A DNA stretch of 64,000 nt from Rhodopirellula bahusiensis (GTDB lineage Bacteria > Planctomycetota > Planctomycetia > Pirellulales > Pirellulaceae), in the NCBI RefSeq assembly GCF_002727185.1, contig NZ_NIZW01000007.1:62001-126000 (forward strand), in the 5' to 3' direction. Numbering within the stretch: position 1 is the stretch's first letter; the number at the start of each line of letters is the position of its first letter. Positions 8,842 to 37,297 of this stretch are shown in pieces. The notes under the pieces are model-generated. The model was not told where the DNA came from and did not search any database. It saw only the letters and a list, made by a program, of their open reading frames with translations. Both the position numbers and the translations under genes were made by a program.

Positions 8842-8876
8842 TAGCCCAGCCGCATCTTGACGCTGGGCTATTTTTT
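8842..8876 (+). terminator. intrinsic terminator after rplK
   Basis: TAGCCCAGC (8842-8850) and GCTGGGCTA (8862-8870) pair perfectly and are followed by six T (8871-8876). The stop codon of the convergent msrB gene (8868-8870) lies inside the 3' arm, so the stem may serve both strands. Confidence 0.9.
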
Positions 8877-9461: not shown

Positions 9462-9719
9462 TGTTTGGTCTCCAGAGTCGGAATGGGTGCCAAAATCTTG
9501 CTGAAACACCACCATTGTAATGGGCCGGCACCTCTTTCGGCCGCCAAATCCCCGGAACGACGCCCCCACCACAGGTTCTGACGCCGGCGAATTGCCCAAA
9601 ATCTTGGCTTTTGAGGAATGTCAAACAGCGGAGACGACCGCGTGAAAAGACGGCCAGTCGTGCGGCTCGATGAGTTTTTGGGCCACTACAATGCGTGCAA
9701 ATACTCTCTCCGCCCAGCC

Positions 9720-10868: not shown

Positions 10869-10943
10869 ATCATCACTTTCCTGCCCAACGCTCAGCACAT
10901 TCAAGACCTGTGGCGGGACAGATTCGTAGGTTACGATGTCTCG

Positions 10944-12459: not shown

Positions 12460-12515
12460 TTCAAAACCTCATGCAGCGGGACGATGGAACCGCTGCATGA
12501 TAGTCGATCGAAGAT

Positions 12516-13508: not shown

Positions 13509-13635
13509 CGTTCTGTCTCCGGTCTTTGGAAAGTTTGAATTCGCGTCGCGGCGATGTCTTCGCCTTACAAACTGCCAAGCGGCAGACTTCTGAATGCGTT
13601 ACAGAGAAACTTCGATTTTCTTGAATGCCCAAAAT

Positions 13636-14862: not shown

Positions 14863-14944
14863 TGGATCACCTCATCAGATCAGGTGTGGTGCGGTAAAGG
14901 GAACAAAAGACCAAGCGTGATCTCTCGGCTGGTGTTACCGAAAA

Positions 14945-19743: not shown

Positions 19744-19893
19744 GACACAGGAAGGGTGTTTCGAGATTCGTCGAACAGGAAAACGGCGCGGCGTGCCCAT
19801 GATAGCGAGCACCTCGGTAAGATGGCATGCACCGTTCTTGCTCCTCTTCCTTGCTCAGCCCGACTTCGATTGGCTCCCCTCCCGGTGATCACG

Positions 19894-20547
19894 ATGGACG
19901 ACGACAGCTCACTCGACTCATCGACCCCACCCACGGACGATCCGCTGATCCAGAGAATTCGCCAACGAGACGTCGACGCGTTGGGCGAGTACATCGCTCA
20001 GAATCGCGATTCTTTGTTTCGATTCGTGAAATCCATCACCGGCGAACACCTGCTGGCGTTGGTCGAAGTCGATGATTTGATCCAAGAAATCGCGACAGCC
20101 GCCATCTCAGGTCTGCCAACCGCGCCGCTGGACCAATATTCCGTGATGCAGTGGTTGCAACAACTTGCTCGCAGACGCGTGGTCGACGCCCACCGATTCC
20201 ACTTCGACGCGAAACGCCGCGACGCGGGTCGGCAACAATCGATTCACGGCGGCGGTGCGTCAGGTGGCGATGACGGTGCCATGGGCATGGAACAATTGCT
20301 CGCCGCCAGCATGACCTCGCCCAGCGCCGTTGTCAGCCAAAACATTCGACTCAACGCAATGTCTCAAGCGATCGGGCAACTCAACGAAGAACAGCAAACC
20401 GTCATCCGGCTGCGATACGTCGACGGCATGCCGACTAGACAAATCGCGGAACAACTCGGCAAAACCGATGTCTCCATCCGAGTCTTGCTGTCACGCAGCA
20501 TGCGACAACTCGAAAAACAACTCGAAGCCAACCGCCCCACACGCTGA
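19894..20547 (+). CDS. ECF-type RNA polymerase sigma factor
   Basis: The ~217-aa protein has sigma region 2 around LFRFVKSITGEHLLALVEVDDLIQEI and region 4 at LNEEQQTVIRLRYVDGMPTRQIAEQLG followed by VSIRVLLSRSMRQLEKQL. The linker between them carries a Gly/Asp-rich insert (GGGASGGDDG). The ATG at 19894 is used because the longer upstream frame has no sigma similarity. It diverges from the membrane kinase gene; planctomycete ECF groups next to kinases are thought to be controlled by them. A hairpin (AGGCT-TCC-AGCCT) follows the stop. Confidence 0.88.
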   Translation: MDDDSSLDSSTPPTDDPLIQRIRQRDVDALGEYIAQNRDSLFRFVKSITGEHLLALVEVDDLIQEIATAAISGLPTAPLDQYSVMQWLQQLARRRVVDAHRFHFDAKRRDAGRQQSIHGGGASGGDDGAMGMEQLLAASMTSPSAVVSQNIRLNAMSQAIGQLNEEQQTVIRLRYVDGMPTRQIAEQLGKTDVSIRVLLSRSMRQLEKQLEANRPTR

Positions 20548-20894
20548 CAAAAGTGGCATAGGCTTCCAGCCTGTGAGCTCCCCTGTACCAAGACTGATGC
20601 TCGATGTCCCCTTGATGGAATCGGTACGATGCCCTTGCAAGGCCGTCGCCCACAGCCAGTCCCAATAGGATGGACGCCATCTCACCTTGAACCCAATCCC
20701 ATGGATGTGGGACAAGCACACCACAGTAAGCATCGCATGAACAACAAGTGACCTAGCGGAAGGGCGCGAGCCCTCCGGTTCCTCACCGGGCTGCTTGCGC
20801 CACACCGCTAACATCGTCACTTGTTGTTCACGCGTTGCTAAGCAGCTGAGCTGAGGCATGGTTCAGAACAGGCAAATACAATTGAAATGCGAAT
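20548..20894. other. gene-free stretch with repeat elements
   Basis: No convincing coding frame lies here. It holds a short hairpin after the sigma gene (AGGCT-TCC-AGCCT near 20562) and the ~99-bp palindromic element at 20735-20833. Confidence 0.7.
20735..20833. repeat. REP/MITE-like palindromic element
   Basis: The ends are TGAACAACAAGTGAC (20738-20752) and GTCACTTGTTGTTCA (20816-20830), a perfect 15-bp inverted repeat that extends to 18 bp with one mismatch. Inside are TAGCGG (20754-20759) paired with CCGCTA (20805-20810), a hairpin AGGGC-GCGA-GCCCT, and CCGGT-TCCTC-ACCGG. The whole unit can fold as one branched structure. It has no coding potential. Confidence 0.8.
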
Positions 20895-21386
20895 TCAAGG
20901 GACGACGCCGAGTTCAAGAAGCGTCCAGAACAAACCTGAAGAACCAAAAGCAACAAGATTGATCACGGTGGCCAACCTCGGTCTCCGTATCCAGTAAAGC
21001 CGGCACGAGAACGCCCAGCAACTTCCAAGAAAAGCAAACCCGGCCGCCACAATCATCCCCTTGGTAAATTCAACATCGTAGCCCTGTCGCTGTGCCATGT
21101 TGATTGATTCAACCGCAATCAGAAGTGCAAGGCCGAGACTTGCTACCCCGAAAATGCCCGCCAGCAACATGAGCAATGGGTATCGACTCGGCGGCAACCG
21201 CTTGGCGGCATCGCAATGCGTTGGCGATTCATAGGGATTCAATTCGACCGAGGGCCCGAACTTGTAACGAACTTGTAAGGTGCCAGCCACTTTGTGGAGT
21301 GCGATCCCAACTTCGCTCGCATCAAACTGTTCACATCGCTGAGGCCGCGGCATGGCAAAGCTCTCCCTCTCGGAACCGACTGACAA
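20895..21386 (-). CDS. small membrane protein with NPYESP motif
   Basis: Three or four hydrophobic segments follow an NPYESP motif (LLMLLAGIFGVASLGLALLIA; GMIVAAGFAFLGSCWAF; LATVINLVAFGSSGLFW). NPYESP sits near the N-terminus of many small planctomycete membrane proteins. Here it is at residue ~50 of the longest frame, so the real start may be the TTG at 21242, which would make the protein begin MNPYESP; the upstream ~48 residues would then be noncoding. Function unknown. Confidence 0.6.
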   Translation of the reverse strand: MSVGSERESFAMPRPQRCEQFDASEVGIALHKVAGTLQVRYKFGPSVELNPYESPTHCDAAKRLPPSRYPLLMLLAGIFGVASLGLALLIAVESINMAQRQGYDVEFTKGMIVAAGFAFLGSCWAFSCRLYWIRRPRLATVINLVAFGSSGLFWTLLELGVVP

Positions 21387-21475
21387 GACAATTGGATCCT
21401 ACGCAGCGGCGGTTGGGAGTCAAGGTTTGGTGGGTGGCACCATTCGGTTGGGGAACGCTATCGCCAGGTCGCCAG

Positions 21476-21853
21476 CTATATCGGTAATTCGTTAAAAAGA
21501 GTGAGAATCGCAATTTGGGATACCGAAATTCCGACAAGTCCACCGAAGCAACAAGCGATCACAAAGTTAGTCGTGGACGATAACCGACGATGAAGGATCG
21601 ACGTACGGGAACGATACAGAACGAAAAGCATGACGAGCACCAGACCCAAGACGACAGCCACATTTGACCAGTTGCATGGCACGCCCAAAACGCCCAGCGA
21701 CAGAAAGAACGTGATCGGCACGAATAAACCACCAACTACGATTGAATAAACTGCGAATATCAAACGCTGAAGAAAAGACGTTTTCTCATTCGCAACGTCT
21801 ACAGTGTTCGCAACATTTGCGTTTCCATCAGGCGATTCGTATGGGTTTATCAT
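21476..21853 (-). CDS. small membrane protein with N-terminal NPYESP motif
   Basis: The 125-aa protein starts MINPYESPDGN and has three or four hydrophobic segments (LIFAVYSIVVGGLFVPITFFLSLG; VAVVLGLVLVMLFVLY; FVIACCFGGLVGISVSQIAILTL). It lies on the same strand as the NPYESP protein downstream, 89 bp away. It is a paralogue in layout rather than in close sequence. Function unknown. Confidence 0.7.
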   Translation of the reverse strand: MINPYESPDGNANVANTVDVANEKTSFLQRLIFAVYSIVVGGLFVPITFFLSLGVLGVPCNWSNVAVVLGLVLVMLFVLYRSRTSILHRRLSSTTNFVIACCFGGLVGISVSQIAILTLFNELPI

Positions 21854-21998
21854 TCGGGCATGCCTCCTGGAAGTTCAGTCAAGCAACTCCCAGTGCTATC
21901 GGGACGATGAGATCGCAGCAATGATGGTAGAAAAACAAGACCAATCGCTGACACTGAGTCCCCCCACTTCAACACATCGGACCGTCACCACCAAGCAT

Positions 21999-22766
21999 TC
22001 AGGGCGACATCTCAAACTTGATTTTCACTTCTGCCGAAATGGAAACCTGACCTGGCGTATTGAGTCCCAGAGGTTCTGCGTTAGTGTCGTCACGCTGGAC
22101 AACAAGAGTGTATTCCGCCCTCTCATTTGGAGAAACTCTTTCCGCGACCGATCGATTCACATCATGCGAAGCAGCAGACATAAAAAAATCCGCCGCAGCT
22201 TCATTGTATTCAACGTGCTCCTCAATCTGCAGAGCCGCCCCCAGTTTCATCCCCGCAAGTTCAGTGAGGTGCCCAGCCTTTTCTTTGGCATGCGCCACCG
22301 CCAAACGCCTCGCTTCAAACTGGTGCTTTCGTTGACTGCTGACACGAAATTGCATGCGTGAGACGTTCGTGAGCCCAGCATCAAACGCATCGGACAAAAT
22401 CGGTTCGATTTTGTCGAAGTCCGTCAGCCGCACTGAAATTGCTCTCTTATAGTTGTAGGAAACCGGTGTTTCTTGCCGCTCGCCAAACTCACCGTAGTAC
22501 GGTGAAACATCAAGATCGTCCACCTTTATGCTGGACCTTGGGACCGAATGGTCGCCTAGCAACTTCAGTAGTGACCTTGAGACCGCATCGTTTCCGCGTT
22601 TTGCTTCCAGAAGACTCGCCTCTCTCGTACGAACGTCGAGCCCAAGCAATACTACATCTGGCGTGACCTTTACTTCGCCAGCCGCAGTGACCGTGATAGT
22701 TCGCTGCTCTTCAGCAACCAGAACGGAACACCAGACGCAACAAAGGACAAACACGAAAGATTTCAT
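21999..22766 (-). CDS. exported SIMPL-domain (DUF541) protein
   Basis: The family is periplasmic or outer-membrane-associated and related to the oxidative-stress protein YggE. Seen here: signal peptide (FVFVLCCVWCSVLVAEE), then TITVTAAGEVKVTPD, the SIMPL opening, and YNYKRAISVRLTDFDKIEPIL and ARRLAVAHAKEKAGHLTELAG in the body. The ATG at 22766 is chosen because it begins the signal peptide; the longer frame adds only 20 untypical residues. The mature length of ~235 aa is normal. Confidence 0.85.
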   Translation of the reverse strand: MKSFVFVLCCVWCSVLVAEEQRTITVTAAGEVKVTPDVVLLGLDVRTREASLLEAKRGNDAVSRSLLKLLGDHSVPRSSIKVDDLDVSPYYGEFGERQETPVSYNYKRAISVRLTDFDKIEPILSDAFDAGLTNVSRMQFRVSSQRKHQFEARRLAVAHAKEKAGHLTELAGMKLGAALQIEEHVEYNEAAADFFMSAASHDVNRSVAERVSPNERAEYTLVVQRDDTNAEPLGLNTPGQVSISAEVKIKFEMSP

Positions 22767-23156
22767 TGAGATACCAAATGCACGTGATACTGAAATTCGC
22801 AGAAGCTTGCCGGACGAAAGTCGCATCCTTCGCGGTTACCCACGAAGTCATGGCAACTGCGGTTTGCGACATCAAGACTTCTTGCAATTCAATCAAGATT
22901 CACCAGACGCTCAGCCGCTAGTCACCAGAGCAACTCGACGCCAAACACAAGGCTAGCCTCGCTGCATAAGAAGCGGTTTCCAGATGCCCGACCGCCGTGG
23001 GCTATCGAGACCTGATCCGTTCGGCCACCCGTCAGTTTGTCCTAATCACTTATGCGACGCAAGCAAATTATGCGACGCCGTACTGGGACAGTTCGGCAAA
23101 TGGTGGTTGCATGACGCCACCGCGTAGCACTCGCGAGTGCAGATGGGCAACTTGAT
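22767..23156. other. gene-free stretch upstream of the repeat-bounded cassette
   Basis: I see no real gene. A direct repeat TTATGCGACGC occurs twice around 23048-23078. Together with 23157-23439 this is the longest gene-free part of the window. Confidence 0.6.
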
Positions 23157-23196
23157 TCAATTCGCGAAACCGCGTTTGCGGAGCAGGGCTTCTGTG
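23157..23196. repeat. left copy of a 40-bp direct repeat (3' end fragment of the M3 peptidase gene)
   Basis: These 40 bases are identical to 33022-33061, in the same orientation. The right copy is the stop codon and last 12 codons (plus one base) of the M3 peptidase; here the fragment has no gene attached. It includes the palindrome TTCGCGAA. Confidence 0.9.
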
Positions 23197-23205
23197 CGAA
23201 AACTT

Positions 23206-23266
23206 GGAAAACTGGGGGCCACCGGAAAGCTGGGGGCCGGAAAGCTGGGGAAAGCTGGGGGCCACC
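23206..23266. repeat. tandem GGAAAGCTGGGGGCC repeat
   Basis: Four imperfect copies of a 15-bp unit lie at 23206, 23224, 23239 and about 23251; two are followed by ACC. The last runs into GCCACCCAC, which is inverted on the other side of the transposase gene. Confidence 0.8.
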
Positions 23267-23269
23267 CAC
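23258..23269. repeat. left inverted repeat flanking the transposase gene
   Basis: GGGGCCACCCAC here is the exact reverse complement of 24586-24597, on the other side of the transposase gene. Confidence 0.6.
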
Positions 23270-23439
23270 AAACTTTAGCAGCGGCAGTGACCCGCTGTTG
23301 CCACAGGAGGACACCTCGGATGCTCATGAGCAACGTATTGCGAGCTTGCGCACGAAAGAACCTCGGTATTGACCGGCAACGCGCAGCTGTCAACTCAGAC
23401 GGACTTCAGGGGCAATCGTCGGCTTGGAAAACGGCTGGA

Positions 23440-24516
23440 TCAGTCCGATGACAATCCAAGTGGGTTTTCGTGGGCGCAAAGCCAATGTTGGCCGCACCGT
23501 ATCGCCTCTCTCGCGAGGCTCTCAGGGGTTCCCGCTGCACGCTTGAAGACTCGCCCAAACTTGCACACGACGTCGCACCAGCCGGTCGCATCCAAGCCCA
23601 GGCGGCTCAAGATCGGAGACAAGTGTTCGGGGATCACTCCTACCTTCCCGTCTCGCAACTGCCGGCCAGTCCAGTCGAGCAATTCCAAATACTGAGCCAT
23701 TGAAACGCTTAAGAATCCCTTGGAGCTCGCCCTGCGTCCAGAGCTTTCGAGGCACGGCCCCACCGGGTCATCCTGTTCGTTGATCTCAATCGGGCTCATC
23801 CAACCACTCTTGCGACGCCGACGACTGCGTTCCCAATCGTGAGTGTTGGGCCGAGTTCGATCTTCCCGCTCCGCTAGGTCGTCGATCCGATCCTTCGCTC
23901 CGGTGTAATCACTGGTTTCCGGCGTTTCAGCGATGGCGGCGCGGATCGGATTGAGATCCACGTACGCCGCACAAGCCAGCAAACTCGCCTCATCAAGAAG
24001 ATTTTGCAGCTTGTATCTGCCCTCCCAGAATCGGCCGGTGCACTCATCCTCACGGTTGGCTCGCCGAGCAATGTTCTCCGCCGTGCACCGCATCCACCAA
24101 CTCACATCGGATAGCCGCTGACGCCGTTGGGCCAGCACCTCAGGTTGATTGACAATCATGTCAATCTCTGGCTTGGACGGAATCTCTGGTGAACCGTCAG
24201 GCTTGCGACGATGGGGAAACAAACGCAACCAACGACGGGCAACTTCTTCGTCCGTCCAAGCCGCTACCACGTCCGGACGGCTACGCAGCACGATGTGCAA
24301 ATGATTGCTGAGCACCGTGTAGGTCAAACAATCGATTCCAAAGACACTTGCGAGGAACTCCAGTCGATCACGAATCCACTGCCGCCGATGTTCAAACGAT
24401 TGCCCCGTGAACGGGTCATCGCCGCACAAGAATGCTCGCCGGACGCACCGCTGAACGGCATGAAAGACTTGGATTTCTGCGGGATCAGCAACTTCGTAAC
24501 GAGGTTTGCGAGCCAT
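23440..24516 (-). CDS. REP-associated tyrosine transposase (RAYT, IS200-like Y1 family)
   Basis: Y1 HUH transposases nick and rejoin single-stranded DNA; RAYTs are thought to mobilise REP palindromes. The metal-binding HUH-type motif is SNHLHIVLRS, and the catalytic Tyr is in CAAYVDLNPIRAAI, a hallmark of this group. The C-terminal ~140 residues are basic then variable, typical of the planctomycete version. The 358 aa appear complete, with GGAG before the ATG. It is the last gene in the run of minus-strand genes behind the sulfatases, and 12-bp inverted repeats flank it. Confidence 0.88.
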   Translation of the reverse strand: MARKPRYEVADPAEIQVFHAVQRCVRRAFLCGDDPFTGQSFEHRRQWIRDRLEFLASVFGIDCLTYTVLSNHLHIVLRSRPDVVAAWTDEEVARRWLRLFPHRRKPDGSPEIPSKPEIDMIVNQPEVLAQRRQRLSDVSWWMRCTAENIARRANREDECTGRFWEGRYKLQNLLDEASLLACAAYVDLNPIRAAIAETPETSDYTGAKDRIDDLAEREDRTRPNTHDWERSRRRRKSGWMSPIEINEQDDPVGPCLESSGRRASSKGFLSVSMAQYLELLDWTGRQLRDGKVGVIPEHLSPILSRLGLDATGWCDVVCKFGRVFKRAAGTPESLAREAIRCGQHWLCAHENPLGLSSD

Positions 24517-24585
24517 GAGGTGTCTCCAGCCAGGGGAAGCGATGCAGCAATCCTACGCACGACCCCGCAATAGGCAAGTCAAAAC

Positions 24586-24597
24586 GTGGGTGGCCCC
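24586..24597. repeat. right inverted repeat flanking the transposase gene
   Basis: GTGGGTGGCCCC, the reverse complement of 23258-23269. It lies just upstream of the transposase gene and just after the sulfatase stop. Confidence 0.6.
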
Positions 24598-24618
24598 TTC
24601 TCACGCTCCGCTCGTTCC

Positions 24619-26607
24619 TCAGCGGGCATCCGTTGAAAAATCCCACTGGACCGGTTTCCCGTCCTGGGCTTTCCAGCGGATCGAGCGGATGTCGAGACCG
24701 TCAGTGGCTGGGGCATACAGACGAAGCAACTGACTTCGTCCCTCGACAGGCACTTGCACCGTGATGTCCTGCCAGCTAGTCGACTCAGGAACTTCGAAGT
24801 CGACCGTCTGGCCGGTTGCGGGGAAATCAGTCTGTTCCTGGGTTCGCCACTGAACACGTCCCGTCCCGCTCTTACCATCGATGCCCCGAACTTGTAGGTG
24901 CAGCGTGATTGGGCCAGCCAGTTGCACCTGGGCCGTTCCCAGGAAGGGATTCTTTCCCTGAGCGATCACGCGTATGCCGTCGTCGATCGATTCAATGCGA
25001 CATTGCTTGGGAACCAGTCCATGCGTCGGGCTCCTGGAGTTTTTGGGTGAGGTTGATCCTCGCTGAAAGTCTGGGTTCGGTTTCGGCGGAAGTCCGCTGG
25101 TGTGCTTAAAGTGCGAATCGATAAGCTTGCTAAGCTCCGTGACTTTCTCAGGCATTTCGGCAGCGAGATTCTTCGATTCGGCGAGATCCTCTTTCAAGTT
25201 GAACAACTCAACGAGACCCTCGTACTGGTCCGGTTTGCTGGTGTAGCGCCTAATGAGTTTCCAATCGCCGTCGCGCACCGAGATGCCACCACCGTGATAC
25301 GGGAAGTAGCTCACGCTCGTTTGCCCCGTTCCCTCTTCGCCCTCGGTGAGAACCTTCGCGATGGACTTTCCATCGATGACATGATTGGCAGGCTCGGCCT
25401 GGCCGGTCAGTTCAAGCAGCGTGGGATAGAGGTCGATATTATTAACGATTGTCTCGCTGACGGATCCCGCAGGAATGTGTTGGTGCCAACGGACCATCAA
25501 CGGAACGCGCTGGCCGCCCTCATAAAGCTTTCCTTTGCCACCGCGTAGGCCGAGATTCTTCGTCGGATACTGCACGCCAGCGTAGTCGCTGTAAATTTTC
25601 GTGTAGCCATACGTCTTGCTCTTCGGATTGGCCATCTTTCGCTTCTGTTCGCTCGCCCCCATGCTGTGGGTGTTGCCACCATTGTCCGAGAAGAAAACAA
25701 CAATGGTGTTGTCGGCGATACCGAGTTCATCGAGCGCCGTCATGACTCGTCCAAAGTTGTCGTCCATCGTCTTCAGCATCGCCGCGTAGACGGGATTGGT
25801 ATGACCATCAGGCTGAGTTTCTTTTTGGGCGAACTTCTGGATCAGATCCTGTTTCGCTTCCCAGGGGCCGTGACAGTCGTACATCCAGAGATTCAGGTAG
25901 AACGGTTCGTCCTGATGTTCGGTAATGAATCTGATTGCCTCAGTGCCCAGCCGGTCGTCGATGTGTTCGCCTTCGGGTCCGTCGACAATATTGCCGACTC
26001 GATGGGCAGCACTCGGCTTTCCATCAGAATGTACGCCGTGCGGTGAGAAGTAGGTGCTTCCGGGAGGTCCGGGATCCGGTGCGGAGTGAAACGTGACTTC
26101 GAAGCCGTGCTGGTCCGGCCAATGCTCCTGAGTCAGGCCGAGGTGCCATTTTCCCATGTGAGCAGTGCGGTAGCCGGCGCCGAGGAATGCTTCGGCCAGA
26201 GTTGTCGCATCCGGATTCAGGTAAGTGCGGCTTTTGGTGAGCAGGTATTCGTTTCGAGGTGTGGCAGGCTGATAAACCTGTTCGCCCCATGGCCCTGGCT
26301 TAAGGTGTCCGTGGGCGGAGAGGATGCCGTGCCGCGACTCCTCTTGCCCTGTCAGGATGGAAGCCCGACTGGGCGAGCAGAGCGGATGCGCGTAGGCGTT
26401 GGTGAACCGCATCGCTTGCTTGGCAAAGGCATCAATGTTTGGCGTCTCGTAGTAGTCGGAACCAAAGACGCGTCCATCCGTCCAACCCATGTCATCGACG
26501 AGAAAGAGAATGACGTTCGGCGGTCGTTCAGGTTCGTCATTTGCCTTGGCTGACAGACAAGCAAGACCAACGATTGGCAAGAAGAGCAAGGCGTGATGAA
26601 GTCTCAT
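24619..26607 (-). CDS. exported sulfatase (formylglycine type), 662 aa
   Basis: This is an S1-family sulfatase that would hydrolyse sulfate esters. The formylglycine motif is LCSPSRASILTGQ, with the metal site opening NVILFLVDDMGWTD and a later FFSDNGG. A signal peptide (LLFLPIVGLACLSAKA) directs export. After the catalytic domain (~500 residues) a ~130-residue C-terminal beta-rich extension (LHLQVRGIDGKSGTG, to FSTDAR) looks like a glycan-binding or accessory domain. Only 12 bp separate it from the next sulfatase upstream, so the two are almost certainly co-transcribed. Substrate not predictable from sequence alone. Confidence 0.92.
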   Translation of the reverse strand: MRLHHALLFLPIVGLACLSAKANDEPERPPNVILFLVDDMGWTDGRVFGSDYYETPNIDAFAKQAMRFTNAYAHPLCSPSRASILTGQEESRHGILSAHGHLKPGPWGEQVYQPATPRNEYLLTKSRTYLNPDATTLAEAFLGAGYRTAHMGKWHLGLTQEHWPDQHGFEVTFHSAPDPGPPGSTYFSPHGVHSDGKPSAAHRVGNIVDGPEGEHIDDRLGTEAIRFITEHQDEPFYLNLWMYDCHGPWEAKQDLIQKFAQKETQPDGHTNPVYAAMLKTMDDNFGRVMTALDELGIADNTIVVFFSDNGGNTHSMGASEQKRKMANPKSKTYGYTKIYSDYAGVQYPTKNLGLRGGKGKLYEGGQRVPLMVRWHQHIPAGSVSETIVNNIDLYPTLLELTGQAEPANHVIDGKSIAKVLTEGEEGTGQTSVSYFPYHGGGISVRDGDWKLIRRYTSKPDQYEGLVELFNLKEDLAESKNLAAEMPEKVTELSKLIDSHFKHTSGLPPKPNPDFQRGSTSPKNSRSPTHGLVPKQCRIESIDDGIRVIAQGKNPFLGTAQVQLAGPITLHLQVRGIDGKSGTGRVQWRTQEQTDFPATGQTVDFEVPESTSWQDITVQVPVEGRSQLLRLYAPATDGLDIRSIRWKAQDGKPVQWDFSTDAR

Positions 26608-26619
26608 AGGTTTTCGTCT

Positions 26620-28002
26620 TTACGGTTCGTAGTTTTTAGATTCAGGCAAGCTGCTTCTCACCTTCGTTTTCGCGTAATCTATGGGCAGACTGGCGGCCCA
26701 GGTTTTGATTTTCTTGGAAAGCGATTTCACAACGTCTGGATGCTGCGCAGCGATGTTGTTGCTTTCACTCGGGTCGATCGACAGGTCGTAGAGTTCTGGT
26801 TCGCCGCGTTGTTTGCGTGGCAGGTGCAGTTTCCATTTTCCGTCTCGCATAGCAGGTGTGCTGCCGGTGGAACTGGTCTTCCAGAATAGTGGCTTTAAAC
26901 GCTCTCGATCGGTACCGAACCAGATGTCGGAGATGTCCTCACCATCGATCGGATTCGGTAATTCATCGACTCCGGCAAGGGAGCAAAGCGTCGGCAACCA
27001 GTCGATGAGCGAGCAAACGCTTGTCGTATCAACTCGCCCCGCGTGAACTTTACCCGGCCATCGGATGATGAACGGGACGCGGGTTCCCCCTTCATATTGT
27101 TCGTGTTTGCCGCCGCGAAACTCACCCGCATAACCCAGCATGTTGTTGGAGAATTGGCGGGTGCCCTTTTTTCCTGTTACCACGGGGGCGGGACCGTGAT
27201 CACTGGAAAATACGACGATTGTGTTTTCCCTGATCCCCAATTCATCAAGGGCCTTCACGACTCGGCCCACGTTTAAGTCGAGCTGGTAGATGTCGCCGAG
27301 ATACTGACGCATCGACTCATCGAGATCGCCGCCGATCTTCAGGCACTCATCGAACTTGTGCTGCATGGTTGGCGAAAAGTCTCTCCGGTCGACGCTGATA
27401 TCGTTGAACTCAGCGGCTAGCCCCTGAGCAGTATTGACTGGGAAGTGCGTGGCGTGCCCCCAGACGTTGACGTAGAAGGGGGCATCCTTGTTGTCCCTGA
27501 TGAAGTCGATCGCGGCCGAATACAAGTCGTCGTCTCGGCCGGCTGATCTGTCTCGACTTTTGCCAATCGTCTGGACCTCATCGATTCCATAAGTGCCGTC
27601 GCTGTCGTCCGGGCCGATGTGCCACTTGCCGAACTGCCCGGTTTTGTAGCCACGTTTCTTCAGCAGTTCGGTAATGGTGACTCGGTCGCCAAAACCGAAG
27701 TCCGCTGCATACTTCGGGAATCGAGCTGGAAACAGGCCTGTCATCAATCCCGTGCGGCTTGGGTTGCAGGTCACGCCGGTCACATAAAACTGTGTGAACC
27801 GCGTCCCTTCTTTGGCGAGTTGGTCAATCGCAGGCGTTCGAGCATAGGGATGTCCGTAACATCCAAGATCGCCGTAACCAAGATCATCAGCGAACATAAA
27901 AACAATGTTCGGCGGCCGCTGAGCGGTTGCTTGGGCCCTCGCAAATGAAGGTGTAACCGAAAGCAACACTGCTGAGGCCAGCAATAGAATTTTATTGTTC
28001 AT
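26620..28002 (-). CDS. exported sulfatase (formylglycine type), ~460 aa
   Basis: The FGly motif is VTCNPSRTGLMTG; metal-site residues appear in NIVFMFADDLGYGDLG and VFSSDHGPAP. ATG at 28002 opens a signal peptide (ILLLASAVLLSVTPSFARAQ); the nine extra residues of the longer frame are unlikely. Its length fits a catalytic domain without extension. It lies between two other sulfatase genes on the same strand, 28 bp behind the upstream one. Likely target: a sulfated polysaccharide or oligosaccharide. Confidence 0.92.
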   Translation of the reverse strand: MNNKILLLASAVLLSVTPSFARAQATAQRPPNIVFMFADDLGYGDLGCYGHPYARTPAIDQLAKEGTRFTQFYVTGVTCNPSRTGLMTGLFPARFPKYAADFGFGDRVTITELLKKRGYKTGQFGKWHIGPDDSDGTYGIDEVQTIGKSRDRSAGRDDDLYSAAIDFIRDNKDAPFYVNVWGHATHFPVNTAQGLAAEFNDISVDRRDFSPTMQHKFDECLKIGGDLDESMRQYLGDIYQLDLNVGRVVKALDELGIRENTIVVFSSDHGPAPVVTGKKGTRQFSNNMLGYAGEFRGGKHEQYEGGTRVPFIIRWPGKVHAGRVDTTSVCSLIDWLPTLCSLAGVDELPNPIDGEDISDIWFGTDRERLKPLFWKTSSTGSTPAMRDGKWKLHLPRKQRGEPELYDLSIDPSESNNIAAQHPDVVKSLSKKIKTWAASLPIDYAKTKVRSSLPESKNYEP

Positions 28003-28030
28003 TGGAAATGGTCCTGCTGAGATTGACACT

Positions 28031-29623
28031 TTAACGCCCCTTTCTCGATTGCTTTTGTTTCATTGCGGGATCGGTGTAAGGCAAGTACTTCGGATGGGGA
28101 ACATAGTTGCCTTTGCCTTTCTCCCAACGGAACGTTTCGCCTTCGACGACGAGATCACGCCGCACGTTGAGCTTGGGTTCCGGATCGGCGAACTTGGCTG
28201 GTGCTGAATCCTGCAGCGTGGTGATGACGTCCGTGTACTTCGGATCGGACGCGAGGTTGTTCCATTCGTGCGGATCCTCTTGGACGTTGTACAGTTCTTG
28301 GTTCTGGTCGTCGTAATGGATGAAACGCCAGTCGCGATTGATCACGGTGTATTCACCTGGGTTGATGTAGGGCAGATATACCGTTCGGTCTATTGCGTCG
28401 GCGGGATGCTTCAACGTCGATGCCAACGAAACTCCTTCCAAGTTCTGCTGCGGTGCCGGCAAGTCGCATTGCTCAACCAGCGTCGGATAGATATCAATCA
28501 GGCTGACCGTCACGTCAGTCCGAACCCCTTCAGCGACACCGGGCCCTGCCCACACAAACGGCACGTTGGAGGTTCGTTCCCACAAAGTGTGTTTGCCCCA
28601 CTGGCCTTTTTCGCCAAGGTGGTAACCGTGGTCGCTCCACAGCACGACAATGGTGTTGTCGGCATAGGGGCTTGCTTCGAGTGCGTTTAGAATGCGACCG
28701 ACCATCGCATCAGCGTAGCTGGTGCACGCGAGGTAACCGTGCAGGGCGTCTTTCCAAGCACCCATGGCAACCAATTTGTCGTAGTGTTGCTTCCTGCGGT
28801 TCTGACGTTGTTTGACAATCTTCTTTGGAAGATCGTCTAGGTCATCTTCCTTGAACGCCGGAGTCTCGATGGCATCTCGATCGTACAACTCAAAATACTT
28901 CTGCGGACAGTAGTTGGGGTAATGAGGAGCGTAGAAACCGCAGGCCAGAAAGAACGGCTGGTCGTGTTTTTGCTCTAGTTGATCGACGGCCCAGTTCGCA
29001 CGCATCGTGTCGGCCATCTCCTCTTCTTCATCATTCGGAATTGCACCCCATTCCAAGAACAACCCGCCGGTGATCTCTTTGCCTTGGTTGTAGGTGCTGG
29101 CCGGAAAGGGCTGTGGCACCGGCGTGTCGCTGCTCCATGATTCAAGTGCCCAACCGCCTTCCCGTTGAAATTGGTTTCGCAGGAAGAACTTTGTCCAACC
29201 TCGCTGGTCAATTGCTCCAGCCGGATGATGAAAGAGCTTGCCAGCGCCCAGCGTCGAGTAGCCCGCTTTGGCAAAGCTCATTTGCAGCGATTCAATCTCC
29301 GAATGATGCACAAAGTAATTCGGAGTCTCGTAGCATCCAGTCGTCGATGCGTATTGGCCGGAAAAGATGGCTGCTCGACTGGGTGCACAAAACACTCCAG
29401 CGGTATGAGCGTTGGTAAAGCACACGCCACGAGCGGCAAGCCGATCGATGTTGGGTGTGATTGCATTGGGGCGTGAGTCGAGACATCCGACAAAGTCGTT
29501 CATGTCGTCAACCGCCAGGAATACGACATTGGGGCGTGCATCGTCTGCAGACAAATGGCCGGCAAGACTTGCGACGAAAACGATGCCGAAAAGGAAATGC
29601 GTCGGTATGTGCATAAGTGTCAT
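28031..29623 (-). CDS. exported sulfatase, iduronate-2-sulfatase-like
   Basis: The FGly motif is [13 protein letters not shown], and [13 protein letters not shown] plus [18 protein letters not shown] are characteristic of the iduronate-2-sulfatase-like branch. ATG at 29623 or 29614 precedes the signal peptide ([17 protein letters not shown]); the ~100 residues upstream in the longest frame lack family character and overlap the FecR-LamG gene. It is the first of three consecutive sulfatase genes behind the ECF/FecR pair. Confidence 0.92.
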
Positions 29624-29745
29624 TTGAGTTGAGGTTTTGGTGGTGGAGGAGGCAACGAGTTCCCGAATGAAGGACTCGGTGCCCCGTCCATCACGTCCTT
29701 TTTTGCACGGTTGCAAACACCGTAAGAATCGCGGGTACTTGGACG

Positions 29746-31347
29746 TCATCTTAATCTCGCGATCTCCTCTTGAGCCGTGCGATAGAGTGTCGAAATTTCG
29801 GCTCCGTTGAGCGCTCGGTTGAACAAAGCCACTTCGTCGATCCTGCCGTCCCAAACTTGTGTCGCTTTGGCGTCCGTTCCGAACCAGACCGTCTCGGAGT
29901 CGCTGGATGCCATTTCGGTGCACGCTGTGGAAGCAACGAGCCTCCCGTCTTCGTAGATCTGCAATTGCTCACCGTCAGCAGTCACAACAATGTGCCGCCA
30001 GGTTTTTTGCGGTAGGGCTGAGTTACCTGTGGTGGACGTGGTCACGAGTCCTGTTGTGAGGTGACTCGTTGCCTTGTCCACCACCGTGGTTATTGCCGGA
30101 GTCATGGCCTCGTCCATCACGATGGTGGTTTGCAGCGTTCCGTTCTTATTGAGAGAGAGACTGAAGTTGCCGCGGTCTCCATCCCGGTTGGTGGCAACCA
30201 TTGCGCTATGGGCGGGCGCTTCCAGATACACGAACACGGTTAGCGAGAAGTGTCCTGTGTTGAATGCGGGCGGCGAATCGACGCGCCCGCCACGACCAAT
30301 GGAGTCGACTCCGACTCGCAAAGAACCGCCGGCGAAGACACCTTTGGCATGTGCTGGGCGTTTGCCGTCCCCTGTTAAAACGACGCCAGAGTATTCGGGC
30401 GGTTCCGACACCAAACCGCGGTCGCGAATTGGCATTCGGTAATAAACGACGGGCGACAACCGCTTGATCGCGCGGGCGTAGTTCAGCCTCGGTTCATCGA
30501 AGTTGCGAATGAATCGGTTGGTCTCGACGGAGATACCAACCAAGTCAGGTGCCCCACCAGAAATCCGGACGGCCTCCGAAGCGTGAAGATCAACCGACTT
30601 GGAAGCGTCACGTTGATTCGATGCCCCCGGATTCACACGCACGAGGCCATCAAACACATGCACCTCGCTCGCACCGCCCTCAACATCAATTGAGAACTCG
30701 GTGCCGAAATCAATGACTTCCGCTTCGGGAGTTTCAACGGTGAACCCGATGCCTTCCGGTGGAACGGTGGCTGACAAACGCCCGCTGTGAAGCACAACAC
30801 GCCGGTCGCTCACCGCATCGAAGCGGGCAGGAGCCTCCATATACACCATGACTCCGCCGCCGAACCGCAGATTCAATAATCCTTTTCGCAATTCATAGTC
30901 GCCCATAGGCAGTTGCGGATCGTCCCATTGCTGATCGCCTTTCGTAAGCAATCCACCCACGTTGCGGACGACGGATGCCGCGACGCGATCCTCGCTGGTC
31001 GATTGGTCGTCGCGGTGGGGCTGCAAGAAGGCGAACAGCAGGCACGCCGCTGTTACCAACCCGGCCGCTATCGCTAGCACTCTCCTTGGTGATCGAATCA
31101 ATGACGGCTGGTGATTTTGTTTTGTCGAACCGGGAATGATCTCCGAGGCAGCGTTGCTGGCTTCCAACGCATTTGTTTGGATCTGTCGGCGTCGCAGCGA
31201 TTGCCGCAAGTCTGAATGAAGCTCGGCACGAAGTGCAAACCGCTGAAGATTGGCGGGGTTCTTCAGCCACTGCTCAAACGCTGTGGCTTCTTCGTCGGAT
31301 AGCTCGCCTGAAAGCATGCGATCGATCAATTCATCGTCGACGGGCAT
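29746..31347 (-). CDS. membrane FecR-LamG protein, probable anti-sigma factor
   Basis: The ATG at 31347 overlaps the sigma-factor stop (TGATG). Residues 1-60 ([21 protein letters not shown]) are a cytoplasmic anti-sigma-like helix bundle. A transmembrane helix follows near residue 90 ([19 protein letters not shown]). Outside are a FecR domain (~130-290, with [15 protein letters not shown]) and a C-terminal LamG/concanavalin-like domain (~350-530, with [19 protein letters not shown] and [11 protein letters not shown]). The layout suggests that ligand binding, perhaps of a glycan, by the outer LamG domain modulates the sigma factor inside. Confidence 0.87.
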
Positions 31348-31871
31348 CACTGATTCTCCAAAGCGGTGCGTCGTTCGATGCAACTTGCAAGTGCCGTTCG
31401 CACACGCGTAAGCAGGACTCGAACCGACCCGCTGGTCGACCCGATTTCGCGAGCGATCTCGGCGGCGGAACGTTCTCCGACGTATCGCAAATCGAGCAGC
31501 TGACGCGAACGAGGCGGGAGTTCATCCAGACAGGACTCCAGTGCTTCGCGACGTTGGCTACGACCATCCGCCTGCTGAGCGATTGTGTCCGCAAGTTGGC
31601 CGAGCACCTCGTCCGAGAAAACGACCCGCGAGCGACCTTGAACTCGGTAAAAATCAATCACCCGAGACTTGGCGATCCACAATGCCCATCCAACGAAGGT
31701 CCGGCCCGAGTCATACTCATCGAACCGCCGCGCCAGTTCCTGAGCGATCCGCTGAACAACGTCTTCCGCATCATGGAACCCACTGATCGATGCAAACACA
31801 TACGCCGAAACAGCTGGCTCAGCATCAAGCCAGCATCGAGTGAAATTTGCCCGTTTCTGATCTTCGTTCAT
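31347..31871 (-). CDS. ECF-type RNA polymerase sigma factor
   Basis: The 174-aa protein has region 2 (FHDAEDVVQRIAQELARRFDEY, then FVGWALWIAKSRVIDFYR) and region 4 (LPPRSRQLLDLRYVGERSAAEIAREIG, VRVLLTRVRTALASCIE). ATG at 31871 is favoured over the GTG at 31877. It overlaps the FecR-LamG gene by one base, so sigma and anti-sigma-like protein are translationally coupled. Genes behind it on the same strand encode three sulfatases, its likely regulon. Confidence 0.88.
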   Translation of the reverse strand: MNEDQKRANFTRCWLDAEPAVSAYVFASISGFHDAEDVVQRIAQELARRFDEYDSGRTFVGWALWIAKSRVIDFYRVQGRSRVVFSDEVLGQLADTIAQQADGRSQRREALESCLDELPPRSRQLLDLRYVGERSAAEIAREIGSTSGSVRVLLTRVRTALASCIERRTALENQ

Positions 31872-32217
31872 GTGCACGGCCGACGCGGAACAACAGTCTG
31901 TCCACCGTATGCCGAACGCGAACAGGAATCGTTAACAATAATCGCGAAAAACAGTCAAATTCAAACCCTCAGATTGAAGAAGACAATCAATTTCGCAGCT
32001 TCCCATTGGCTTTATCCTTTCGCCACTTCGTGGCTACAGCATCCGTTGGCACCGTTGGATGAGCAGCGGGCGTGAAGAAAAGCGAATCAGTTCGCGCCGC
32101 CCGAATGAGTGCTCCGTGGGCATCCGATTGCGATCCGCCTGATCTAGCCGGATGCGACGGGGTATGACCGTGAGAACTGGAATGACTGAAAGACACCGTC
32201 GAGAGGACTCTCGCCCG
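31872..32217. other. gene-free stretch upstream of the ECF operon
   Basis: No coding frame has family character. It should hold the promoter of the ECF-FecR-sulfatase operon and the 3' flank of the GH16 gene. I could not pick a convincing promoter or terminator. Confidence 0.5.
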
Positions 32218-33016
32218 CTACTGATAAACCTTCACCGAATCAACCAGCATCTGCACCGGGAATTGAGTGGTCGTATCGGGAGGCCCCAAGAAAGCCATCT
32301 CCAACGGCGACATTCAACAACAGATGAAACGGTTGATCAAACGGGGCAGGGTACTCGCCGCCTGAGCTCTCCCATCTCGTTTGCTCTTGAACCGATTTCC
32401 CATCGATCAACCACTCAATTTCATTGGCTCGCCAGTTCACCGCGAACGTATGAAAGTCATCGGCGAAGGTTCCTTGCCCCAGCGTGAACTCGTCGCCGGT
32501 GTGAAGGTTATTTGGCCACGGTGCGCCGTGATGCAGCGTCCCCAACACGACGCTGGGTTGCTGACCTCGCATCTCCATGATGTCAATCTCGCCGCTGGCT
32601 GCCCAACCACCGTACTGATCCTTGGTAGGCAACATCCAAATGGCTGGCCAAACGCCTTGTCCTTGCGGCAACTTCGCACGCACTTCGATGCGCCCGTACT
32701 TCCAGTCACCTCGGTGCTTGGTTCGAACTCGCCCCGACGAGTACTCTCGCGACGTTCCGCTAATGGCCGCGTTGTCACGTCGAGCCTCCAGAACCAGACA
32801 GCCATCCTCGACTCGCACGTTCTCAGGGCGGTCGGTGTAAATCTGAAGCTCGTGGTTGCCGCCACCGAACGCGTTGACTTCGATCTCCCACTTGGAATAG
32901 TCCAACGAGTCACCGTTGAACTCATCCTTCCAAACGAGCCGCTCGAAAGACTCGGCAATCGCGTCATTGGGATCCCATCCGATCAATGCGATCGTCAATC
33001 CGATGGCGATCATCAT
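32218..33016 (-). pseudogene. GH16 glycanase (laminarinase-like), frameshifted near its 3' end
   Basis: GH16 enzymes cleave beta-glucans and algal galactans. The catalytic ExDxxE motif is GEIDIMEMRG, the start EFNGDSLDYSKWE is typical, and TLHHGAPWPNN points to the laminarinase-like branch. A short signal peptide (MMIAIGLTIALIG) starts at ATG 33016. The frame as it stands ends early after GDGFLGASRYD. Removing one base from the run of four C at 32284-32287 restores GPPDTTTQFPVQMLVDSVKV, then YQ and a TAG at 32218-32220, which is the canonical GH16 terminus. Either a recent mutation or a sequencing error. It begins 5 bp after the M3 peptidase stop. Confidence 0.85.
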
Positions 33017-33021
33017 CCGGA

Positions 33022-33061
33022 TCAATTCGCGAAACCGCGTTTGCGGAGCAGGGCTTCTGTG
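33022..33061. repeat. right copy of the 40-bp direct repeat (inside the M3 peptidase gene)
   Basis: Identical to 23157-23196. It begins exactly with the stop codon of the M3 peptidase (TCA on the plus strand) and covers its last 12 codons (coding [11 protein letters not shown] and the preceding Thr) plus one base. Confidence 0.9.
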
Positions 33062-35214
33062 TCGACGTCACGACCGCGGAAATTGCGGTAGGTTTCGACG
33101 GGATCGATTGTGTCGCCGACACTGAGAATGTGATCGAACAGCTTCGCAGCGGTTTCCTCGTCGAAGAAGCTTCCTGCCTCGACGAACATCTCCGCCGCGT
33201 CTGCCGTGAGCGCGTCGCTCCACAGGTAGCTGTAGTAGCCGGCCGAGTAAGCGTCGCTGCTGAACAGGTGACTGAAGTGAGGCAAGCGGTGACGCATTGG
33301 CAATTCGTCTGGCATGCCGATCTCCGCCAACGCCGACTTTTCAAACTCACTGACGTCAATGTCTCCGGCCTGCAGTTGATGCAGCTGCATGTCCAGGATC
33401 GCACAAGCCAAGTACTCGACGGTTTCAAACCCGCTGTTGAACTTCGACGAAGCTTCGATCTTGTCGAGCAATTCCTTGGGCATTGGCTCGCCGGTCTCGT
33501 AGTGCGTCGCGTAGCGAGTCAACACTTCGGGCGTCGACAACCAATGCTCCAGCACCTGCGAGGGAAACTCGACAAAGTCGCGAGCGACGTTGGTGCCAGA
33601 CTGCGACGGGTAATGAACGCGACTGGACAGTCCGTGCAGGGCGTGGCCGAACTCGTGGAACAACGTGGTCGCGTCGTCCCAGGAAATCAAAACCGGCTTG
33701 CCGTCCGCAGCGGGAACAAAGTTGCTGTTGTTTGAAACGATCGGAGTCCGCACAGGAACGTCCGCGGAGGCGGGATCAAGATCCCATCCCGATTGACCTC
33801 GGTAATCCATCATCCACGCGCCGCTGCGTTTGCCTTCGCGAGCGAATGGGTCCAGATAAAACAGTCCCACGTGGCTTCCGTCGGACTTCTGCACCACTTC
33901 GTAAACGGTGACATCGGGATGGAAGATGGGCAGATTCCCGACAGGTTGAAACTGGAATCCGAACAGTTCATCCGCACACCACATCATGGCTTCGACCAAG
34001 CGATCGAGTTGCAGATAAGGACGCACTTCCGCCATGTCCAAGTCGTATTTTTCAGCCCGGACCTTTTCGGCGTAGTAGCGGTAATCCCACGGTTCGATTT
34101 TGATTTTCGGTTTACCAGCCGCTTGCATTTCTGCGTCGGCGATGGCTTGCATGTCCGCCACTTCCGTCGCGACACGCTGCACGGCGTGAGGCCACACCTT
34201 CATCATCAATTCCATTGCACGATCGGGCGTGCCCGCCATCGTGGATTCCATTCGCCAATGAGCGTGTGTGGGATAGCCGAGCAACTTGGCTCGGGCCGCA
34301 CGCAGATTCAAGATTTCGCGAATGATGGCTTTGTTGTCGTGAGCATCGTTGTTGTCACCGCGGAAGTAATAATTCCGCCAAACCTGTTCGCGGAGCTCAC
34401 GGTCGTCCGCATTGGTCAAAAACGGGTCCATCGACGAGCGAGTGTTAGTCACAGCCCATTTGGCCTTGCCGCCTTTTTCTTTCGCAGCGACCGCCATCGC
34501 ATCGCGACTCGACTGCGGCACACCTGACAATCGCGACTCGTCGTCAATCCAAGTGACGTGCCCCTTCTCTTCTTCAAGAACGTTTTGGTTGAAGTCGGTG
34601 AACAACCGAGCCAGTCGAGTGTTGATCTGCGACAGCTTGGATTTGTCTTCCGGGCTCAACCGAGCCCCGCGGCGCACAAAGTTCTTGAATGTTTCATCCA
34701 GTAAACGCTTCGCATCGTCGGGCAACGTGACCGTCTTCTTCTCAAAGACGTCCTCGTGGATCGCTTCGATGCGAGCAAACAACTCCGCGTTCTGGGTCAC
34801 TGAATCGGAGTAGGCAGCCAGCTTGGGCGTGATGCTGCGTTCCAAATCAGGGATTGGCCCGAGATTCAAATTCCCCGCATGCACATCGAACAGCACCTCG
34901 ATTCGGTGCAAGGCTTCACCAGCGGTTTCCATTGCGAGAATGGTGTTCTCAAACGTGGGCGGCGCGGACTGGTTCGCGATCTGGTCGATTTCCTTTTCGG
35001 CCTGCTCAATCGCAGCGTCGAAGGCAGCACCGAATTCATCGACACGGACTTCGTTCCATGGCGGCACCCCACCATGAGGTCCCGGCCAAGGTTTCAGAAG
35101 CGGTGAATTCGAAAGGAGAGACTGCGAGCTGTTCACGGAAGATTCTTGTGAATAGGAAGGTTGGACCAACGCGATCGCGGCAAGGAAGCTTGCCGGAACA
35201 ACACACCATCTCAT
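33022..35214 (-). CDS. exported M3 family peptidase (Dcp/oligopeptidase A-like)
   Basis: A zinc metallopeptidase that trims dipeptides or small peptides. The active site is [14 protein letters not shown] (HExxH), with the third zinc ligand in [12 protein letters not shown]. The C-terminus [14 protein letters not shown] is native to the family. ATG at 35214 opens a signal peptide ([20 protein letters not shown]), so it acts outside the cytoplasm, like periplasmic forms; most Dcp proteins lack one. The start overlaps the cysNC stop by 4 nt (ATGA), an unusual partnership. Its last codons are duplicated at 23157. Confidence 0.92.
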
Positions 35215-37154
35215 TTGATGAACCCTTTTGATTTCAGAAGTTCCACCACCGCATCCGCACATTCTGCGATGGAAGTGGTGGAGGCATCGACGGCCAAGTC
35301 TGGATTGGTCGGAACGTCGTACTTTGCAGTCACGCCAGGGAAGTTGGACAACTCGCCCGCGTCAGCTTTCGCGTACTGTCCCTTGGTGTCACGTTCGCGG
35401 CAAACTTCCAATGGAGTCGCCACGTGCACGACCAAGAACTGATCTTCACCGATCAGCTTGCCGACTTTTTGACGCACATCATCAGACGGTGCCACCAAAG
35501 ACGCCAAGCAAATCAGTCCGGCATCGTTCAACGTGTGAGCCAAGTGGCCGCTACGACGCAGGTTCTCGCTGCGGTCCTCTGCGCTGAAGCCCAGATCACG
35601 ACTGAGCCCACGACGCACAAATTCGCCATCCACGACGGCGACCGATCGTCCGGCGTCAAACAATTTGCGTTCCACGGCACGAGCGATGGATGTTTTGCCA
35701 CTGCCCGTCAATCCGGTCATCAGGACCGTCGCAGGTTTCTGTCCGAAGCGAGCCGAACGTTCTTCCTCGGTGACGGTTGAAAGTGCGTCCGAAGAGTCAT
35801 CCGAAGACGCTTCATCGTCCCAAACCGATTTGTGGCTTCCGGTCGTTCCGCGATCCAAAATCATGCCCGCGGCGACGGTCGCGTTGGTGATCCGGTCGAC
35901 CAAGATGATCGCCCCCGTCGTTCGGTTGCGACGGTACGGGTCATGGTGAATCGGTGCTGACAACGACAACCGAACACGCCCGATTTCGTTCAGTTCCAGT
36001 GTCGGGGCAGGGGTGCGGTGCAGGTCGTTCACGTCGACTTTGTAAGCCAACGTTTCGACGTTCCCGGGGACCGTCTGCGTGGTGTGTTTGACGAGGTAAG
36101 TCTTGCCGGGAACCATCGCTTCTTCGTTCATCCAAACCAACATCGCTTCGACGTCGGATTCGCTTCGCGGCAGGTTGCCGCTACGGACGATCATGTCACC
36201 GCGACTGGCATCGATCTCGTCTTCCAACGTCACCGTCACGGCCAACGGAGCGTAGGCTTCGTCTAAGTTGCCGTCGTAGGTGACAATTTCTTTGACCTTC
36301 GACTTTTGACGACTCGGCAGAACCGTGATCTCTTCGCCTTTGCGAATGATTCCGGATGCGATCGTTCCACAGAAACCGCGAAAGTTCAGGTTCGGACGAT
36401 TGACATACTGAACCGGTAATCGGAAATCTTGCAGGTTGCGGTCCGAACCGATGTAAACGGTTTCCAAGAAATTCATCAGCGTGCTGCCGGTGTACCACGG
36501 CATGTTCTCGCTGCGGTCGACCAAGTTGTCGCCGTTGAGAGCACTGATCGGGATGAAATGCAAATCCGGCAAATCCAAGCGTGTCGCGAAATTGCGATAG
36601 TCTTCGCAGATCTCGTTGAAGCGTTCTTCGCTGTATTCGACACCGTCGATGTCCATCTTGTTGACGGCCACGACCACGTGACGAATGCCCAACAACGAAA
36701 CGATGAACGAGTGACGACGGGTTTGGGTCAGCACGCCATGACGGGCATCGATCAGGATGATCGCCAGGTCCGCGGTGCTGGCACCGGTGGCCATGTTCCG
36801 AGTGTATTGTTCGTGACCGGGAGTGTCGGCGATGATGAACTTGCGTTTCGCCGTGCTGAAGTAGCGGTACGCGACATCGATCGTGATGCCTTGCTCGCGT
36901 TCTTCTTTCAAACCGTCCATGAACAATGACGGATCGAACCCACCGGCCACGCTGCCTTGGCGAACCGAGTCACTTTGGACCTTGGCCAGTTCGTCTTCGT
37001 AAACCAACTTGGAATCGTAAAGCAGACGGCCGATCAACGTGCTCTTGCCATCATCCACGCTGCCGCAGGTGATGAAACGCAACAATTGCTTTTGCTCATG
37101 CTGCTTCAAATAAGCATCGATGTCAGTGGCGATCAGATCAGATTGATGGCTCAT
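35211..37154 (-). CDS. cysNC: bifunctional sulfate adenylyltransferase subunit 1 / APS kinase
   Basis: CysN is the GTPase subunit of ATP sulfurylase and CysC phosphorylates APS to PAPS. GTPase motifs: [27 protein letters not shown]. The APS kinase half starts near residue 460, with P-loop GLTGSGKTS. The usual DGDN(V/I)R reads DGEFVRRGL, a variant noted in the findings. At 647 aa it is the normal fused length. It lies downstream of cysD, 143 bp away, on the same strand and overlaps the M3 peptidase start. Confidence 0.95.
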
Positions 37155-37297
37155 GGAAGTGTCTCAGTATCTCAGTGTCGCAGGGCCACAGGTTGGCAAA
37201 TGGACGGGTGCATCGGAAAGCAAATCGGAGTGATTCAGGAGCAATTGGCATCGGCGCAGACCTGTGGTTCTGTGCCTCTGTGTCCCTTTCAACCTTC

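Follow-up and report, generated by a model that had tools for sequence, protein, structure and literature searches.

A duplicated peptidase gene end in a Rhodopirellula turnover hotspot: a possible scar of one-sided recombination

Genomic islands and cis-mobilizable elements (CIMEs) integrated at gene 3' ends carry a direct repeat of the gene end on both of their sides, and such a repeat bracketing foreign DNA is commonly taken as the footprint of an integrase. Gene turnover at fixed chromosomal places has also been described in other terms. In a survey of 80 species, half of the hotspots are reported to be without evidence of mobile elements, with recombination taking place at the flanking core genes (PMC5635113), and for type VI secretion system loci of Vibrio a one-sided recombination that strands pieces of genes has been put forward (PMC5361080). 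Here we analyze a 64-kb stretch of the Rhodopirellula bahusiensis genome (positions 62,001 to 126,000 of contig NZ_NIZW01000007.1, hereafter the window, at its full length of 64,000 nucleotides), in which the terminal 40 bases of a gene for an M3 peptidase recur on the far side of a sulfatase operon, presenting the same footprint without integrase support. We tentatively interpret this pair of 40-base copies, with a probability of roughly 0.4, as a one-off recombination scar within a turnover hotspot and not as the attachment sites attL and attR, the incoming DNA having been anchored by the peptidase gene and its other end joined illegitimately.

The duplicated gene end and its hotspot

The two copies, the peptidase gene and the hotspot occupy the following positions, with G numbers denoting the genomes compared and C numbers their contigs:

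23157..23196, minus strand: orphaned left duplicate of the final 40 bases of the peptidase gene, including the stop codon (exact match to 33022-33061)
33022..33061, minus strand: right copy, the 3' end of the M3 peptidase gene, including the stop codon (open reading frame 33022-35262, minus strand)
33022..35262, minus strand: M3 (Dcp-like) peptidase gene, the proposed homologous anchor (PF01432, E 1e-115; mosaic identity)
20548..33021, no strand assigned: turnover hotspot, from a sigma factor gene (19756-20547, plus strand) to the peptidase gene; about 90 bp in G011, with different contents in G002, G004, G006 and G009

The two copies are identical at 40 of 40 positions, in direct orientation and offset by 9,865 bases. 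Flanking the left copy are a SIMPL/DUF541 gene (21999-22826) and the gene for a transposase (23440-24516) of the type associated with repetitive extragenic palindromic (REP) sequences, or REP-associated tyrosine transposase (RAYT), and the identity of the left copy to the gene end stops precisely at the stop codon. A 66-base query around the left copy returned exactly two matches in the 7.78-Mb assembly, both of them the 40-mer sites, which rules out a chance match. A repeat scan of the window (seed 16, minimum 26 bases) revealed just two other families of direct repeats, of 106 and 36 nucleotides and with imperfect copies; a chance origin was rejected on the two genome sites together with the lack of any comparable exact repeat reported in the window, and a dispersed repeat family was rejected as well, the 40-mer having been found at two places only in the genome. 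These results agree with the first-pass annotation of this stretch, which had described a perfect direct duplication of 40 bases, the left copy orphaned and the right one starting with the M3 peptidase stop codon, and had proposed a genome-wide search for further copies; none was found beyond these two.

The peptidase was sought in 40 genomes, including the window's own, of which 19 matched; 13 of these are the window genome and 12 congeners. The same left-hand sigma factor gene could be found in the five nearest relatives (G002, G004, G006, G009 and G011), whose peptidase identities, taken together, are 98, 97, 96, 95 and 88%. The gap from sigma gene to peptidase is about 90 bases in G011, the spacing is about 15, 6 and 14 kb in G002, G004 and G006, respectively, and the G009 locus is split over contigs C3 and C40, also with other DNA. 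The G006 hotspot holds another set of genes for an extracytoplasmic function (ECF) sigma factor, a FecR protein and a sulfatase, together with a DUF7133 protein and a PD-(D/E)XK nuclease, and that of G004 a sigma-kinase pair. A radical SAM protein, a trypsin-PA14 protein and a 3-keto-disaccharide hydrolase are encoded in G009, and a GH16 protein, a trypsin-like protein, a DUF1559 protein and a broken integron-type integrase in G002, the last lying inside the hotspot in pieces, in two frames (G002:C1:2194573-2194861). In G009 and G002, the GH16 gene comes immediately after the peptidase and the locus is free of sulfatases; about 31-34 bases of the GH16 gene are retained beside the peptidase in G004. 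Conserved flanks thus enclose cargo that differs among the window, G002, G004, G006 and G009, and G011 is nearly empty. The earlier description of the cargo as acquired-looking and set beside housekeeping genes is supported by this variation among relatives, and by the location of the sulfatase operon elsewhere in R. europaea 6C (G006).

The gene end is single at the locus in all five nearest relatives, where other cargo lies beside one copy and not between two (in G009 just 1,336 downstream bases are available on the peptidase contig, the rest of the assembly being covered by a genome-wide gene-end search). More broadly, a second gene end downstream of the peptidase was found at 0 of 93 other loci; 94 had been examined, with 58 to 15,370 downstream bases each, five loci being counted twice and one (L070) excluded because the gene runs off its contig. 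The best results across the 93 were an exact repeat of 14 bases from the last 60 and an ungapped match to the last 40 at 27 of 40 positions. A 91-base gene-end query matched in 10 of the 13 congeneric genomes, with a second place only in the window genome and G009. Near-matches of a 23-base pattern with three mismatches (in G003, G006:C175 and G012:C74) are in different reading frames and were attributed to chance.

Comparison of the gene ends themselves bears on the age of the duplication. The window and G006 are identical at 38 of 40 positions, with both differences in the last codon, and at each of these the left copy agrees with the window; the corresponding figures for G009, G002, G004 and G011 are 36, 33, 36 and 37 of 40. 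Because it carries the window's own bases at the two positions that differ from G006, the left copy is, judged by its sequence, recent and derived from the window's lineage. An ancient island present in the common ancestor was rejected, given these window-specific bases and the lack of such a copy at the locus in other close relatives.

Identity also shifts along the peptidase gene. G009 and G002 are 98.8% identical over the GH16 body, 96.3% at the CysN/C end and 89.0% in the 3' half of the peptidase, where G009 and the window share 95.1%. The window and G006 are 96-98% identical over 33.1-34.3 kb; beyond that, as far as 40.6 kb, values per 300-base step are 76-94% except for one of 99%, and in the left flank they share 93-99% per 500 bases (11.0-20.2 kb) and 94-100% per 100 bases (20.55-21.25 kb). 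These mosaic identities can be read as pointing to homologous recombination at the hotspot edge. The G009 equivalent of 33062-34400 is itself an apparent recombination tract, with a window-like peptidase 3' half between G002-like neighbors.

Possible origins of the left copy

In the proposed sequence of events, the peptidase gene of the resident cell would have been followed directly by the SIMPL-side sequence, and the incoming DNA would have carried the RAYT element, the sulfatase operon, the GH16 gene and part of a peptidase gene. Pairing of the incoming peptidase sequence with the resident gene would have provided a homologous anchor. The far end of the incoming DNA would have been attached, independently of any homology, at a point 40 bases before the end of the resident gene; a circularized fragment would lead to the same product through a single crossover. 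The outcome would be an intact peptidase gene, with the last 40 bases of the resident copy stranded 9.9 kb off. Identity would stop at the stop codon because donor and resident would share the gene but not the sequence following it. This is the most economical account. The comparisons themselves show the hotspot, the relatives with a single gene end, the mosaic peptidase, the near-identical RAYT copies at other sites and the recent, lineage-specific age of the left copy, whereas the succession of steps, the source of the DNA and its joining at one side are what we infer. No match spanning the left joint (23196/23197) was present among the matches listed for 12 other genomes.

Several points weigh against such a one-sided event. 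The precursor, with the SIMPL flank directly at the peptidase stop codon, was not seen among the matches listed for 13 genomes, and a donor of the same species is required, because the donor and resident gene ends must have been identical. Homology-facilitated illegitimate recombination is reported to be rare where it has been measured (PMC3240628, PMC5361080). Part of the contrast between the window and G006 may stem from import into G006 and not into the window, since G006 and G004 are 87.7% identical over 10.7 kb to the left of the hotspot and 90.9-92.9% to its right. Lastly, a 38-base copy of the peptidase gene end, at 87% identity, is found in G009 between unrelated genes, beside repeat-like sequence (G009:C25:94078-94115), and about 26 bases are missing from the matching sites in G002 and G004. 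This copy cannot arise by one-sided recombination, and favors local copying.

Local copying is the core of the next explanation, which we consider unlikely on balance. A break or stalled fork beside the RAYT element would have been repaired with templated filler, the polymerase copying 40 bases of the peptidase end from 9.9 kb away and then switching back, with the cargo being independent. The location of the left copy within a patchwork of partial copies of the RAYT left end fits such a process, as does the short gene-end-like copy in G009 with its counterparts in G002 and G004; the part inserted in G009 is short, however, agreeing with G006 at 23 of 26 bases by eye count, and could instead reflect a deletion in G002 and G004. 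A random 40-base copy, moreover, would rarely be expected to start exactly at the stop codon.

Site-specific integration, the interpretation given in the first-pass annotation, would have a CIME-like element without an integrase inserted at the peptidase 3' end, with the 40-mers as attL and attR, and we regard it as improbable. Direct repeats resembling attachment sites are present at both borders (40 of 40 bases identical, at 23157 and 33022), and the gene 3' end is duplicated exactly, as far as the stop codon. An empty site with a single copy, or different cargo between two copies, had been named as supporting evidence in relatives; the nearly empty, single-copy site of G011 comes close to the former, but none of the relatives examined has different cargo between two copies, and the 0 of 93 count of second gene ends extends this result to the other peptidase loci. 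The window genome contains 30 matches to PF00589 (tyrosine recombinase), which could act in trans, but all lie off the window's contig (C7). The earlier remark that no integrase is visible is upheld, with no recombinase among the scanned window proteins and no PF00589 match on the contig, serine recombinases not having been searched genome-wide with a model of their own. Among the hotspots of six genomes, the only tyrosine recombinase found was the broken integron-type integrase in G002. Nor is the block between the repeats a unit missing whole from relatives, since in G009 and G002 the GH16 gene adjoins the peptidase and the sulfatase cargo is missing there, and folding of the 40-mer is unremarkable (z-scores of -0.83 and -1.32 on the two strands). 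As far as sequence comparison can tell, this evidence makes a CIME-like element served in trans by a recombinase less probable. Integration with the 40-mers as its borders is not supported, and "mobile sulfated-glycan island" is too strong a label for the segment, for which "sulfatase operon in a recombination hotspot" fits.

The window's 40-base copy and the 38-base copy in G009 could also indicate that some process in Rhodopirellula, independent of integrases, preferentially lands at the peptidase 3' end or copies it. This is a long shot; if true, RAYT/REP machinery, or repair near such repeats, might move pieces of gene ends and seed homology for later gene swapping. Carriage by the RAYT element, moving from the peptidase end with 40 bases of flank, is very improbable: it would agree with the 96% identical element copies at other sites in G009 and G002 and with a first left-end fragment that starts 9 bases from the left copy, but no peptidase-like piece was seen in the flanks read of the G009 and G002 copies, and no relative of the RAYT gene was detected in 15 peptidase loci (E 1e-10, >80 bits).

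Cargo and neighboring elements

The cargo between the two copies, besides the RAYT-type element, comprises:

32240..33025, minus strand: GH16 glycanase (PF00722, E 5.8e-24; contiguous with the peptidase stop codon in G009 and G002 as well)
31347..31877, minus strand: ECF sigma factor, Rhodopirellula/Verrucomicrobium family (PF08281, E 2.9e-13; TIGR02989, 140.6 bits, cut-off 124.55)
29746..31383, minus strand: FecR-LamG protein (PF04773, E 5.8e-8; PF13385, E 1.5e-20)
28031..29923, minus strand: sulfatase 3 (PF00884, E 1e-45)
26620..28029, minus strand: sulfatase 2 (PF00884, E 2.3e-57)
24619..26607, minus strand: sulfatase 1 (PF00884, E 5.1e-54)

This analysis confirmed the gene content first reported for the segment (GH16, ECF sigma factor, FecR-LamG, three sulfatases and a transposase), the RAYT-type assignment of the last being weak. 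The cargo had further been characterized as lying all on one strand. It is indeed minus throughout, but the shared strand does not delimit a cassette, because the flanking peptidase and sulfate-assimilation genes (33022-38209) are likewise on the minus strand. Base composition does not set the cargo apart either, with G+C at 0.54-0.585 per kb against 0.54-0.58 in the flanks and only 21000-22999 lower, at 0.52, and no known RNA family was detected in 19000-36000 at E 0.1.

The true start of sulfatase 3 is probably near residue 101 (about 29623), because the N-terminal 100 residues overlap the FecR gene or lie right beside it and are without counterpart; the best tblastn match of this protein to G006 starts at residue 101. 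A fusion of two sulfatases at the 28031-29923 reading frame was considered and rejected, the first 100 residues being probably noncoding and G006:C90 having an extra sulfatase-like gene of 762 aa at that place. The cargo matches G006:C90 at 83% over 24608-29549 and 76% over 29754-31950, in the gene order sigma factor, FecR, the extra sulfatase-like gene (absent in the window) and three sulfatases. The DNA flanking the G006:C90 operon corresponds to contig C45 of the window genome at 77-83% identity, and no sulfatase matches were present in the 18 kb examined at this probable counterpart, its flanks being just 77-83% identical. Because the C45 counterpart shows no sulfatases in these 18 kb, the sulfatase operon is, by this comparison, placed at different loci in two close relatives, the window genome and G006.

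At the right-hand edge, the start codon of the window's GH16 gene would be a TTG overlapping the peptidase stop codon (33022-33025), with ATG in G002, G009 and the remnants in G004 and G006. The best NCBIfam match of the peptidase is Dcp, at 576.6 bits and under the cut-off of 944. A CysN/C-like gene (EF-Tu-type GTPase and APS-kinase domains) and a CysD-like gene (PAPS-reductase domain) adjoin the peptidase at 35211-38209, near the sulfatases.

On the left, the hotspot includes:

23249..24604, minus strand: RAYT-type element with terminal inverted repeat GGGGCCACCCAC/GTGGGTGGCCCC and approximate left border (gene 23440-24516, minus strand; 96% identical copies elsewhere in G009 and G002)
23206..23248, no strand assigned: incomplete copies of the left end of the RAYT element, separating that end from the orphan 40-mer (from direct repeats and reading of the sequence)
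21999..22826, minus strand: SIMPL (DUF541) gene, left of the orphan copy (PF04402, E 1.5e-35; relatives at other loci in G003 and G012)
21268..21450, no strand assigned: two joined ends of a second RAYT-type element with its interior missing (matching both ends of a longer element in G009:C3)
20738..20839, no strand assigned: dispersed 102-base hairpin, attC-like (folding z-score -7.63)

The RAYT-type element adjoins the cargo on its right and reaches the orphan 40-mer on its left via the partial copies of its own left end. Its Y1-like transposase, which we take to carry an HUH-type motif, is weakly matched by Pfam Y1_Tnp (E 0.11), and its score against REP_Tyr_transpos (NCBIfam NF047646; E 1.5e-8, 34.7 bits) lies under the cut-off of 80 that the family model sets. 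The element is multicopy at differing sites, in G009:C47 and G002 (two full copies, one partial), at 96% DNA identity, and is on this evidence recently mobile. The gene of the longer G009:C3 element also matches NF047646 under the cut-off (E 3.4e-8), and the right end of the 21268-21450 element recurs at many places.

The 102-base hairpin is repeated at many places in Rhodopirellula genomes. Four copies in G004, 89-93% identical and 244-275 bases apart, are arrayed next to an integron integrase (TIGR02249, 476.7 bits, cut-off 265). Because of this array the hairpin is attC-like, and it looks like an attC site scattered as singles.

Comparison with known systems

The event at this locus is ordinary in kind, and the instance is well resolved. 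From the comparison with relatives it offers a caution for island calling. Sulfatase operons come and go at this hotspot and occupy differing loci, and it provides an example of how planctomycetes may trade sulfated-polysaccharide genes via ordinary recombination.

Like integrated islands and CIMEs, the locus has an acquired-looking segment flanked on each side by the same gene 3' end; unlike them, it shows no tyrosine recombinase and no second occurrence of the gene end in relatives, and its right-hand GH16 gene is the neighbor of the peptidase in two of those relatives. It shares with RAYT/REP elements a Y1-like transposase, inverted-repeat ends and the joined ends of a related element nearby, but the match to the REP-associated family falls below the cut-off and there is no evidence that the element moved cargo. 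In form it would also resemble homology-facilitated illegitimate recombination, with one homologous end, one unrelated joint and a stranded piece of the displaced gene region (PMC3240628, PMC5361080), although the process would here be deduced from one product, and not from an observed event. Like the hotspots surveyed in PMC5635113, the locus combines conserved flanks, genome-specific cargo, no intact integrase seen and identity tracts shifting in the flanking core gene; it differs from those hotspots, as they are described there, in that one strain retains a short duplicated gene end.

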